From: Actinotalea subterranea | GTDB lineage: Bacteria; Actinomycetota; Actinomycetes; Actinomycetales; Cellulomonadaceae | Assembly (NCBI RefSeq): GCF_008364845.1 | Contig: NZ_VTTP01000002.1 | Location: 434,001-498,000 of the forward strand | Direction of reading: 5' to 3' | DNA: 64,000 nucleotides | Shown: positions 26,385 to 31,871 of the stretch, piece by piece | How positions within the stretch are numbered: the stretch's first letter is position 1 | How the letters are laid out: each line of letters opens with the position of its first letter | Translations under genes and position numbers: made by a program | The notes under the pieces: model-generated | What the model was told of the DNA's origin: nothing | Database searches by the model: none | The model's input: only the letters and a program-made list of their open reading frames with translations

Positions 26385-27593
26385 TCAGAGACCGGGCAGG
26401 GCCAGCATCTGGTCGAGCGCGACGCGCGCCCAGTGGGCGTCGTCGGCGTCGACGACGATGCGGTTGGGCACGCGACCGTCGAGCAGCGACTCGAGGGTCC
26501 ACACCAGGTGGGGCAGGTCGATCCGGTTCATCGTCGAGCAGAAGCAGACCGTCGAGTCGAGGTAGTGCACGGACAGCTCCGGGTGCGTCGCCGCGAGCCG
26601 CCGCACGAGGTTGAGCTCGGTGCCGATCGCCCACGACGAGCCCGGCTCCGCGGCGTCGAGCGCACGGATGATGAACTCCGTCGAGCCGACGAGGTCCGCC
26701 GCCGTCACGACCTCGTGCCTGCACTCGGGATGGACGAGCACGTTGACGCCCGGCACGGCCGCACGCACGTCGGCGACGTTCTGGGCGGAGAACCGGCCGT
26801 GGACCGAGCAGTGGCCGCGCCACAGGATCATGCGGGCGTCGGCGAGCTGCGCCGCGCTCAGGCCGCCGCCGGGCTTGCGCGGGTCGTAGACGACGCAGTC
26901 GTCGAGGCTCAGGCCGAGCTGCTGCACCGCGGTGTTGCGGCCCAGGTGCTGGTCCGGCATGAAGAGCACCTTGCCGTCGCCGTCGGCGCCCCCGACACGG
27001 TCGAACGCCCACCGGAGCGCGACCTGCGCGTTCGACGACGTGCACACGGTGCCGCCGTGCCGGCCTGTGAACGCCTTGATCGCCGCTGTCGAGTTCATGT
27101 ACGTCACGGGGACGGTGCGGTCCGCGACCCCGGCGTCCGTCAGCACGTCCCACGCCTCCTCGACCTGGCCGATGGCGGCCATGTCCGCCATGGAGCAGCC
27201 GGCGGCGAGGTCGGGCAGGACGACGGCCTGGGCGTCGGACGTCAGGATGTCCGCCGACTCGGCCATGAAGTGCACGCCGCAGAAGACGACGAACTCCGCG
27301 TCAGGCCGGGCGGCGGCCTCGCGCGCGAGCTTGAACGAGTCGCCCGTCACGTCCGCGAACGCGATGACCTCGTCGCGCTGGTAGTGGTGCCCGAGGACGA
27401 AGACCCGGTCGCCGAGCGCCTCGCGTGCGGCGCGGGCCCGGGCGACGAGGTCCGGGTCGCTCGCCGCGGGCAGGGCGCCGACGCACTCGACGCCGCGCTC
27501 CGACTGCAGGTCCGAGCCCTGGCCCAGCAGGAGCAGAGCCCCGGAGGGCGCCGGCTCGCTGAACGTCGGCATGGCGGGGGTCGCGGTGCTCAC
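26385..27593 (-). CDS. nadA: quinolinate synthase
   Basis: [4Fe-4S] enzyme that condenses iminoaspartate with dihydroxyacetone phosphate to quinolinate in de novo NAD synthesis. It is 402 residues with three repeated domains. The cluster cysteines appear in FCGVHFMAES, RGHCSVHGRF and DSTVCFCSTMNR; substrate residues are in GHHYQRDEV and YMNSTAAIKA. nadB and nadC are not in the window, so the pathway is split in this genome or completed elsewhere. The GTG at 27593 is the only good start. Divergent from glycerate kinase. Confidence 0.96.
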   Translation of the reverse strand: MSTATPAMPTFSEPAPSGALLLLGQGSDLQSERGVECVGALPAASDPDLVARARAAREALGDRVFVLGHHYQRDEVIAFADVTGDSFKLAREAAARPDAEFVVFCGVHFMAESADILTSDAQAVVLPDLAAGCSMADMAAIGQVEEAWDVLTDAGVADRTVPVTYMNSTAAIKAFTGRHGGTVCTSSNAQVALRWAFDRVGGADGDGKVLFMPDQHLGRNTAVQQLGLSLDDCVVYDPRKPGGGLSAAQLADARMILWRGHCSVHGRFSAQNVADVRAAVPGVNVLVHPECRHEVVTAADLVGSTEFIIRALDAAEPGSSWAIGTELNLVRRLAATHPELSVHYLDSTVCFCSTMNRIDLPHLVWTLESLLDGRVPNRIVVDADDAHWARVALDQMLALPGL

Positions 27594-28925: not shown

Positions 28926-29276
28926 ATGAGCGAGACCACCCAGACCGCGACGCACGGCGTCGAGCTGACCGACGTCGCGGCCGGCAAGGTCCGTGCCCTG
29001 CTGGAGCAGGAGGGCCGCGACGACCTGCGCCTGCGCGTCGCCGTCCAGCCCGGCGGCTGCTCGGGCCTCATCTACCAGCTCTACTTCGACGAGCGGGTCC
29101 TCGACGGCGACGCGATCCGTGACTACGACGGCGTCGAGGTCGTCGTGGACCGTATGAGCGTCCCGTACCTCGAGGGCGCGACCATCGACTTCGCGGACAC
29201 GATCGAGAAGCAGGGCTTCACGATCGACAACCCCAACGCGGGCTCCTCCTGCGCATGCGGCGGCTCGTTCGCCTGA
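28926..29276 (+). CDS. erpA: iron-sulfur cluster insertion protein (ErpA/IscA type)
   Basis: A-type carrier that passes Fe-S clusters to targets such as IspG/H, LipA and respiratory enzymes. It is 116 residues; the three cluster cysteines are in PGGCSGLIY and the C-terminal SSCACGGSF. The ATG at 28926 has a GCGGAGAC ribosome site. A TACCCT hexamer at about 28840 would give a 5' leader of about 75 nt. Its neighbours include Fe-S clients (nadA, lipA, qcrA) and a cysteine-desulfurase-like gene. Confidence 0.95.
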   Translation: MSETTQTATHGVELTDVAAGKVRALLEQEGRDDLRLRVAVQPGGCSGLIYQLYFDERVLDGDAIRDYDGVEVVVDRMSVPYLEGATIDFADTIEKQGFTIDNPNAGSSCACGGSFA

Positions 29277-29381: not shown

Positions 29382-29639
29382 TCAGCCCGCGGTCCGGACC
29401 GTGGTCGCGAAGGCGTCGGGCCCGTCAGGTCCGGGTGCGGCGTCGGGCGGGGCGAGCGGCGCGGTGGCCCGGACCTCGTGACCGCGCATGCGTGCCCACG
29501 CCGGGATGTCGTGCCGCGCGGCGGGATCGGTCCAGATCACGGTGATGTCCGTGCCCGGCGCGGCGTCCCGAGCGGCAGCCGCGAGCCTGATGACCGGCAG
29601 TGGGCAGCGCAGGCCCCGCGCGTCCACGACCACGCTCAC
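29382..29639 (-). CDS. tusA: TusA family sulfur carrier protein
   Basis: Small (85 residues) TusA/SirA-like protein. The sulfur-accepting Cys is in DARGLRCPLPVIRLA, the CPxP signature. A C-terminal Pro/Ala tail is longer than in E. coli TusA. It starts at GTG 29639 and overlaps the stop of the cysteine-desulfurase-like gene by 4 nt (GTGA), so the two proteins are made together and probably act as a pair in sulfur transfer. Some related genomes encode the two as one polypeptide (from memory). Confidence 0.88.
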   Translation of the reverse strand: MSVVVDARGLRCPLPVIRLAAAARDAAPGTDITVIWTDPAARHDIPAWARMRGHEVRATAPLAPPDAAPGPDGPDAFATTVRTAG

Positions 29640-30784
29640 AGGCCCACCGCGCCCGCCATGCGCCGCACGCTCGCCACGACGTCGGGCAGCTCGTCGCAGA
29701 ACCGCTCGACGTCGGCCTCCAGCACGTCCCGCGGGAGCGCGAGGCGCACGTTGCCGTGCGTGAGGGCGCCCATGGCGGCCAGGACGTGGCTCGGCTCGAG
29801 CGTGCGGGACGTGCACGCGGAGCCGGAGCCGACGGCGAAGCCGCGCCGGTCGAGCTCGGTGACGAGCGCCTCCCCGTCGACGTACAGGCACGAGAAGGTC
29901 AGCACGTGGGGGAGGCGGTCGCCCGGGTCGCCCACGACGTCGACGTCGGGCACCTCACGCGCGACCCGCTCCCGCAGCCGCGCGACGAGCGCGCTCTGAC
30001 GTGGCGCCGTCGCCTGACGGTCCGCGAGCACCGCGCGCAGGGCCGCGGCCGCACCGAACGCCGCCGGGACGCTCACGCCCCCCGGGAACCACGGGTCCTC
30101 GTCCTCGGGCCACGGCGCGCTCGCCCGGACGCGGCTGCGGACGGCGAGCACACCGACGCCGGCGGGCCCGCCCCAGTCCCGCGGGTCCGCGGCGAGGGCG
30201 TCCCACGCCGAGGGGACGGGGTGGTGGCCGACGCTCGCCCCGGCGTCGACGAGCAGGGGCACGCCTGCCGCGGCGGCGGCCTCGTGCGCGGCGTCGAGGG
30301 GCTGGACCGTGCCCACCTCGCCGTTGGCGTGCTGGAGGGCGGCGAGCGCGACACCGGGGACGCCGACGGCCGCGCTCCAGGCACCCAGGTCGACGCGTCC
30401 GACGCGGTCCACGGGCACGACGACGGGTGCCGCGTGCGTGTCGGTCACGTGCGCCGCGACCGCGTGCAGCGCCGCCCGCTCGACGGCGGACAGCACCACG
30501 CCCGCCCCGGCGCGTCGGCGCCCGCGGTGCAGCGCGACCACGGCGGTGTGCAGCGCGGCCGTGTGGCTCGGCGCGAGGTGCACCTCCTCGGTGCGGCAGC
30601 CGAGGGCCGAGGCGAGGGCCTCACGGGCGCCGTCCAGCAGGAGCCGGGCACGGCGGCCCTCGGTGTGCAGGCGACGGGGGTCGGCCCAGCCCTCCGCGAG
30701 GGCCGCGTCGTACGCCTCGCGCGCCGCCGGGTGCAGGGGCGCGCCGGACCCGGCGTCGAGGAAGACGCGGTGGGTGGGGTTCAC
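29636..30784 (-). CDS. cysteine desulfurase-like protein lacking the PLP lysine
   Basis: Class-V aminotransferase fold, 382 residues, in the NifS/IscS line. It keeps LQHANGEVGTVQP, the Asp of LLVDAGASVG and the catalytic-cysteine loop VGSGSACTSRTLEPSHVL. But the PLP-lysine motif (SxHKxxGPxG) reads ADPRDWGGPAGVGVL, so Lys is Asp and the preceding His is Arg; the PLP-stacking His of TAVEH is Arg (SAVERAA), and the Gln of DATQS is Ala. There is no lysine anywhere in the protein. It may not form a normal PLP aldimine and could act as a sulfur acceptor or scaffold. GTG start 6 nt after TAGCGT (leaderless layout). Coupled to tusA. Confidence 0.85.
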   Translation of the reverse strand: MNPTHRVFLDAGSGAPLHPAAREAYDAALAEGWADPRRLHTEGRRARLLLDGAREALASALGCRTEEVHLAPSHTAALHTAVVALHRGRRRAGAGVVLSAVERAALHAVAAHVTDTHAAPVVVPVDRVGRVDLGAWSAAVGVPGVALAALQHANGEVGTVQPLDAAHEAAAAAGVPLLVDAGASVGHHPVPSAWDALAADPRDWGGPAGVGVLAVRSRVRASAPWPEDEDPWFPGGVSVPAAFGAAAALRAVLADRQATAPRQSALVARLRERVAREVPDVDVVGDPGDRLPHVLTFSCLYVDGEALVTELDRRGFAVGSGSACTSRTLEPSHVLAAMGALTHGNVRLALPRDVLEADVERFCDELPDVVASVRRMAGAVGL

Positions 30785-30913: not shown

Positions 30914-30992
30914 GCCCCACGTCGAGGACGAAAGTCCCGGGTGCGGCGGCTCTGGCGGCCGGGTGACCGGGACGCCGGACAGAGAGGCTCAC

Positions 30993-31871
30993 GTGGACGT
31001 GCAACACACCCGCCGACGCGGCGTGGCGAGGGCTTCGGCGCTCGCGCTGCTCACGGCCGTGGCACTGAGCGGGTGCTCCGCCGAGGCGCGCCGCGGCTGG
31101 CTGCCGGGGTACGACGACGGCGAGCAGGTCACCAACATGACCGAGCGCATCACGAGCCTGTGGACCGGCTCGTGGATCGCGGCCCTCATCGTCGGCGTGA
31201 TCACGTGGGGCCTGATCCTCTGGTCGGTCACGGTGTACCGCAAGCGCAAGGACGACGACACCCTGCCGGTGCAGCTGCGCTACCACGTGCCGCTCGAGGT
31301 CATGTACGTCATCCTGCCGATCCTCATGATCGGGGTCCTGTACTTCTACACCGAGCGCGACATGTCGGCGATCCAGGACACCAGCGCCGAGCCCGACGTC
31401 ACGGTGCAGGTCATCGGCAAGCAGTGGAGCTGGGACTTCAACTACGTCGACGACGACGTGTACTCCTCGGGTCAGCACGTGCAGGCCCCGGGCGAGCCCG
31501 GCAACCCCGAGAACCTGCCGACCCTGTACCTGCCCGTCGACGAGCGCGTGGAGTTCCACCTCGACGCGCGCGACGTCATCCACTCGTTCTGGGTGCCGGC
31601 GTTCCTCTACAAGCAGGACATGATCCCCGGCCGGACCAACACGTTCCAGGTCGTGCCGACGCGCGAGGGCGTCTACACGGGCAAGTGCGCCGAGCTCTGC
31701 GGCGAGTTCCACTCGGGGATGCTCTTCCAGGTCGCCGTCGTCTCCCGCGAGGAGTACGACGCCCAGATGGAGGCCCTGCGTGACGCCGGGCAGACGGGCC
31801 AGCTCGGCTCGGACCTGGACCGCATGCAGAACCGCGGCGACGACAACGCGATCCCGACCGGAGAAGGCTGA
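30993..31871 (+). CDS. ctaC: cytochrome c oxidase subunit II
   Basis: CuA-bearing subunit of the aa3 oxidase, 292 residues. A lipoprotein signal ends at LSGC (about residue 27), followed by two membrane helices (about 58-80 and 101-122) and the periplasmic cupredoxin domain. CuA ligands are the His of HSFWVPAF and the set in [12 protein letters not shown]. The GTG at 30993 is chosen over one at 30963 because AGAGG lies 6 nt before it. First gene of the ctaC-ctaD-ctaF operon; it overlaps ctaD in TGATG. In actinobacteria the enzyme works in a supercomplex with QcrCAB, encoded 4 kb downstream on the other strand. Confidence 0.96.

Follow-up and report, generated by a model that had tools for sequence, protein, structure and literature searches.

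In E. coli, sulfur is transferred from the cysteine desulfurase IscS to TusA (3lvj), and PLP is carried on K206 of the desulfurase. The phosphate of PLP is bound by S203, H205, T76, and T243 of IscS. Roles are assigned to H104, D180, Q183, K206, C328, and R354 in a portion of PMC9978102, where Lys206, His104, Asp180, Gln183, and Cys328 are described as indispensable for the activity of the E. coli enzyme. The lysine-less IscS proteins reported in sections of PMC7585200 are archaeal and belong to Archaeoglobus fulgidus and Methanosarcina acetivorans. In A. fulgidus IscS (4eb5, 4eb7, 4hvk) Lys199 is replaced by Asp and the Cys loop is retained; its D199K mutant is PDB 4r5f. Those sections describe the protein as being without desulfurase activity because of the Lys-to-Asp substitution; the original studies, Marinoni 2012, Yamanaka 2013, and Pagnier 2014, are cited there (PMC7585200). 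Its cysteine was found to ligate a [2Fe-2S] cluster on IscU, according to parts of PMC7585200 and PMC9769115, and a figure legend of the latter shows PLP in the crystal of the complex. M. acetivorans IscS1, also reported to lack the catalytic lysine, is encoded with IscU1 and formed inclusion bodies on expression (sections of PMC7585200).

A large actinobacterial lineage has a lysine-less form of this protein as well, and lysine-plus forms at the same locus permit direct comparison. Among the matches listed from open-access PMC, nothing published was found on an actinobacterial lysine-less NifS-TusA pair, nor was an experimental paper on the lysine-plus pair found among the matches listed. The protein studied here is encoded in the window, the whole 64,000-nucleotide stretch of Actinotalea subterranea DNA that was analyzed. 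It is similar in fold to A. fulgidus IscS (TM 0.88-0.92) at 27-29% identity, and this archaeal protein, the closest precedent, has the same Lys-to-Asp change, which is thus not peculiar to this genome. A. fulgidus IscS, however, is archaeal, pairs with IscU, keeps the PLP-stacking histidine, and is drawn PLP-bound, whereas the actinobacterial protein has a TusA partner, Arg103, and a ctaC/erpA locus. M. acetivorans IscS1, which unlike the window protein is encoded with an IscU, is likened to it by description. The E. coli IscS-TusA pair shares the fold (TM 0.89-0.90) but has its PLP lysine. Micromonosporaceae, Kribbellaceae, and other actinobacterial families have a lysine-plus NifS-TusA pair, which occupies the same locus at 37-61% identity and has TusA at 61/63 genes. 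Unlike the window protein, it retains Lys203, His103, Ser200, and Gly74 (63/63).

The gene pair and its active site

The NifS/IscS-like gene overlaps tusA by 4 nt (29636-29639) and is divergent from ctaC, which starts at 30963 on the plus strand (Table 1). This is the arrangement that the original prediction had described, a tusA overlap beside an aa3 oxidase operon. Pfam matched Aminotran_5 to residues 7-362 of the 382-aa protein (6.7e-30) and the TusA domain to the 85-aa protein (3.3e-17), in which CPxP is present. The Cys loop of the larger protein reads GSGSACTSR; both it and the TusA motif (CPLP) are intact, as had been claimed. The prediction that the PLP lysine is gone was also confirmed: the sequence around its expected position is ADPRDWGGPAG, alignment with E. 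coli IscS places Asp203 there, and the translation contains 0 Lys in 382 residues.

Table 1. Features of the lysine-less NifS-TusA locus, with positions in the window
Feature	Position	Strand	Evidence
NifS/IscS-like protein without PLP lysine, 382 aa, GTG start	29636..30784	minus	translation, Pfam, NCBIfam, AlphaFold2, Foldseek
TusA-family sulfur carrier, 85 aa	29382..29639	minus	translation, Pfam
TusA CPLP motif, residues 12-15, carrier Cys12	29595..29606	minus	
Asp203 codon GAC at Schiff-base lysine position (E. coli K206)	30176..30178	minus	
Arg103 codon at PLP-stacking histidine position (E. coli H104)	30476..30478	minus	
Cys324 codon TGC, persulfide cysteine position (E. coli C328)	29813..29815	minus	
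ErpA/IscA-type Fe-S carrier, converging neighbor, conserved context	28926..29276	plus	PF01521
ctaC, aa3 oxidase subunit II, divergent neighbor, conserved context	30963..31871	plus	PF00116
nadA, quinolinate synthase, frequent nearby in relatives	26385..27593	minus	PF02445

The same alignment shows K206 changed to D203, H205 to R202, S203 to D200, H104 to R103, Q183 to A183, and T243 to G236, with T76 (T75), D180 (D180), C328 (C324), and R354 (R347) unchanged. Of the features that mark class-I cysteine desulfurases, the window protein lacks the Schiff-base lysine (Asp203) and the PLP-stacking histidine (Arg103); it has the aminotransferase class V fold and domain and a persulfide cysteine on a flexible loop. 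In IscS the counterparts of Asp180 and Arg347 anchor PLP and the substrate, the Arg through the substrate carboxylate; as both residues persist here, a ligand of some kind may still be bound. For annotation pipelines there is a warning in this, since from the Aminotran_5 and NifS-like domain matches by themselves the protein would be taken for a cysteine desulfurase. The NCBIfam equivalog cut-off was not reached by the 382-aa protein, whose best score was 184.9 bits to NifS vs 530.75 needed. It was also missed by two lysine-plus and two lysine-less homologues and by two further proteins of this genome (L002 and L003), and because lysine-plus relatives fall below it too, this test does not separate the two forms.

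The AlphaFold2 model of the protein has a mean pLDDT of 90.7, with the Cys loop (323-329) under 50. As the loop is of low model confidence, its motif is unlikely to be retained for folding alone. Foldseek matched the model to M. tuberculosis IscS, human NFS1, A. fulgidus IscS, and E. coli IscS; over the 27 top-ranking PDB rows the query-normalized TM was 0.88-0.92. The structural neighbors of a Kribbella lysine-plus homologue were much the same.

Distribution and history of the lysine-less form

Homologues were collected at three levels. The same-family search gave a match in 196/200 genomes at E up to 0.001, a count which includes other desulfurases; from the scan of genome contigs 80 loci were retained, and the first 99 distinct sequences comprised 22 with Lys and 77 without. 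At 1e-50, a match was present in 74/297 genomes of the order and missing or too divergent in 223/297, and the class-level search matched 163/296 genomes. Loci were fetched from part of these (25 order-level genomes, giving 26 regions, and 53 class-level genomes), so that the collection is a sample and not a census. It holds 178 distinct homologues, duplicates having been dropped, of which 115 are without the lysine and 63 have it. Each row is a BLAST-aligned span in which lysines at unaligned ends are uncounted, and one row cut by a contig end (L128) is the sole one unreadable for Cys324 and Arg347. Single in-frame stops within the matched stretch were seen in six genomes (G131, G191, G004, G547, G609, and G707), possibly through decay or assembly faults.

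All rows read from Cellulomonadaceae, Promicromonosporaceae, Sanguibacteraceae, and Jonesiaceae are lysine-less, as are those of the coded families f1, f5, f9, f12, f15, f17, f18, and f51 and five rows without a family name; single cases come from f40, f41, f54, and f57. The lysine-plus form was found in Micromonosporaceae, Kribbellaceae, and 20 other coded families, including f54. The lysine-less rows are 40-75% identical to the window protein and the lysine-plus rows 37-61%; the lysine occurs only in the more distant homologues, mostly at the same locus. Close homologues with lysine, together with a sequencing error here, would have undone the original prediction: every homologue read from the protein's own family and order is lysine-less, and a sequencing error or frameshift is ruled out by a loss common to 115/178 distinct sequences.

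The residue at position 203 of the lysine-less proteins is Asp in 85 and Ser, Ala, Gly, Thr, Glu, or Met in 30. A functional role for Asp203 itself is weakened by these 30/115 substitutions. In the lysine-plus set, Lys203 (which defines it), His103, Ser200, Gly74, Asp180, Glu156, Cys324, and Arg347 are each found in 63/63. Among lysine-less proteins His103 remains in 19/115 (Arg in 89/115), Ser200 in 7/115 (Asp in 92/115), and Gly74 in 12/115, while Asp180 is kept in 113/115, Glu156 in 115/115, and Cys324 and Arg347 each in 114/114 readable rows. Four changed PLP residues had been pointed out originally, and all four are present; however, Arg202 and Ala183 say little, because each is also carried by 13/63 lysine-plus homologues, and the diagnostic positions are instead Lys203, His103, Ser200, and Gly74. 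Arg103 accompanies Asp203 in 80/85 proteins vs 9/30 without Asp, although these counts are inflated by shared descent. In one protein (L183) Met replaces the lysine and the flanking Ser and His and the stacking His are retained, which resembles a recent loss.

That the protein contains no lysine at all, another early observation, is true but near compositional expectation: the catalytic residue is the only lysine of the aligned span in 22/63 lysine-plus proteins, and the span has none in 87/115 lysine-less ones. It had also been argued that composition is insufficient to account for the loss, and this stands, since these 22 lysine-plus proteins keep the catalytic residue as their sole lysine. 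The genome's other desulfurases keep theirs as well, within SGHK in L001 (SufS-family) and L003 and VGHK in L002; these others are one SufS-family protein and two lysine-plus NifS/IscS-like proteins (L002 and L003). GC-driven loss alone is thereby ruled out. Purifying selection acts on the two forms with equal strength: dN/dS (Nei-Gojobori) was 0.075-0.202 in 12 close lysine-less pairs vs 0.096-0.233 in 12 lysine-plus pairs. With such values a pseudogene is unlikely.

Both forms share their surroundings. A divergent ctaC lies within 1.5 kb at 106/109 lysine-less and 46/48 lysine-plus loci examined; where at least 4.5 kb downstream was available, erpA is present at 65/68 and 41/44 and nadA at 60/68 and 28/44 loci, respectively. 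Exceptions to this layout include L126, L127, L158, and L160, in which ctaC is absent, and the rearranged L076. The shared ctaC-divergent locus indicates that the lysine was lost in place and not in a distant paralogue.

A tree was built from 89 rows (55 lysine-less and 34 with Lys, including two outgroup rows), with the trait columns removed and before L183-L202 had been fetched. In it the 48 lysine-less rows of the order group together in a single supported clade (99/93, from a bootstrap that had not settled), and one main loss of the lysine is well supported. The fewest state changes on the best tree are four. An AU test weakly rejected a single clade of all lysine-less rows (p 0.044), but joining L159 and L167 (p 0.383) or L159 and L163 (p 0.106) to the main clade was not rejected. 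Several losses are therefore favored, although not proven.

TusA and the retained cysteine

In downstream profile searches, TusA adjoins 95/114 lysine-less genes with enough sequence and 61/63 lysine-plus genes, with CPxP in 94/95 and 61/61 of the respective TusA proteins. The lysine-less loci without it are L025, L060, L068, L080, L081, L085, L090, L101, L104, L123, L124, L127, L135, L140, L171, L172, L173, L178, and L186. Since TusA is absent at 19/114 loci yet Cys324 is present in 19/19 of their proteins, TusA cannot be the sole partner. It is the usual, not the only possible, partner, and the cysteine retained where it is gone suggests another. Genome G347 has two lysine-less copies: L126 has an altered Cys loop and an adjoining TusA without the CPxP cysteine, and L127 sits at the erpA-nadA locus without TusA.

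The only other TusA domain found in the A. subterranea genome is inside a long protein (L182 1-2214; G000:C21 near 612426), in which it is presumably combined with CoA-disulfide-reductase/NADH-oxidase and rhodanese-like parts and with an end that resembles DsrE. Positions of E. coli IscS at the TusA contact were taken from the part of PMC2854127 that gives them. D52 and R55 are matched in the window protein (D51 and R54), and W45 (R44), E49 (L48), R220 (S217), and R237 (D230) are unmatched; W45 is also absent from the lysine-plus rows of the alignment.

Possible functions of the protein

The reading to which most weight is given, at slightly less than even chances, is that of a pseudo-desulfurase whose Cys loop carries sulfane sulfur, as a rule together with TusA. 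A sulfur relay had been among the original proposals and is now the leading one, though TusA is absent beside 19/114 lysine-less genes. The ancestor would have been a class-I (NifS/IscS-type) cysteine desulfurase which lost its PLP lysine in place, mostly together with His103 and Ser200, and was then retained for its Cys loop. The lysine-less protein would no longer break the C-S bond of cysteine, a loss to be expected from the knowledge of IscS. Instead, Cys324 may be loaded with sulfane sulfur, either by one of the cell's lysine-plus desulfurases or by a small persulfide bound in the former PLP pocket, and may hand it to Cys12 of TusA or to another acceptor where TusA is missing. The missing lysine, the conserved cysteine, the selection, and the pairing with tusA are demonstrated; the lost activity, the sulfur donor, and the direction of transfer are inferred. 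Counting against this reading are the unmatched TusA-contact positions, the retention of Asp180 and Arg347, the PLP seen in the A. fulgidus crystal, the 223/297 order genomes with no match at 1e-50, and the copies with in-frame stops. The system opens a test of the desulfurase scaffold without PLP catalysis and of whether C-S cleavage can be uncoupled from persulfide carriage.

Another role, modeled on A. fulgidus IscS, would make the cysteine a ligand to the metal or Fe-S site of a partner (e.g., ErpA-type or SufU/IscU-type), with no movement of sulfur. This is unlikely, although the same Lys-to-Asp change occurs in the reportedly inactive archaeal protein (parts of PMC7585200 and PMC9769115), erpA is nearby, a single NifU_N (SufU/IscU-type) protein is encoded in the genome, and the cysteine is retained even where TusA has been lost. 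The sole NifU_N protein, however, adjoins the SufS gene on another contig, and the overlapping tusA suggests traffic in persulfide. Moreover, the erpA/nadA context is common to the lysine-plus form and may reflect conserved chromosome order alone.

There is a rather small chance that PLP is still used, being held without an internal aldimine in a slow or specialized enzyme. The conservation of Asp180 (113/115), Arg347 (114/114 readable), and Glu156 (115/115) is consistent with this, as is the retention of His103 in 19/115 lysine-less proteins. A. fulgidus IscS, with Asp at the same position, is drawn with PLP in a figure of PMC9769115, and a passage of PMC9978102 discusses E. coli IscS K206A as partly active at a very low rate. 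Against this, the stacking His is Arg in the window protein's clade (89/115 overall), the motif Ser is Asp (92/115), and 87/115 proteins have no lysine elsewhere in the aligned span. For a new chemistry without an internal aldimine, which was the other original proposal, nothing positive was found in the analyzed data.

It is similarly improbable that the protein is, across the clade, a PLP-free sulfur transferase, in which the emptied pocket would bind a sulfane-sulfur donor, load Cys324, and pass the sulfur to TusA. Such a pocket would contain Arg103 and Arg347, with a putative Asp203-Arg103 pair replacing the aldimine; candidate donors would be cysteine persulfide or thiosulfate. If this were true, it would amount to a recurrent change of function in which PLP was lost and the sulfur loop kept, given the four losses on the best tree, of which more than one is weakly supported.

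By analogy with serine palmitoyltransferase, in which LCB1 is a non-catalytic subunit, the protein could be the non-catalytic partner in a heterodimer with one of the cell's lysine-plus desulfurases. This seems doubtful. Two lysine-plus NifS/IscS-like relatives (L002 and L003) are encoded in the genome, two or more matches occur in most of the 200 family genomes, and IscS proteins are homodimers (parts of PMC7585200 and PMC9978102); but a lysine-plus paralogue was not found among the ten identified neighbors of the gene, and those neighbors also flank the lysine-plus form.

Finally, a relic on its way to loss, with no present function, is quite unlikely: 223/297 order genomes have no match at 1e-50, TusA is missing at 19/114 lysine-less vs 2/63 lysine-plus loci, and a few copies contain in-frame stops, but dN/dS of 0.075-0.202 is like that of the lysine-plus group, and the Cys and Arg are invariant over several families.
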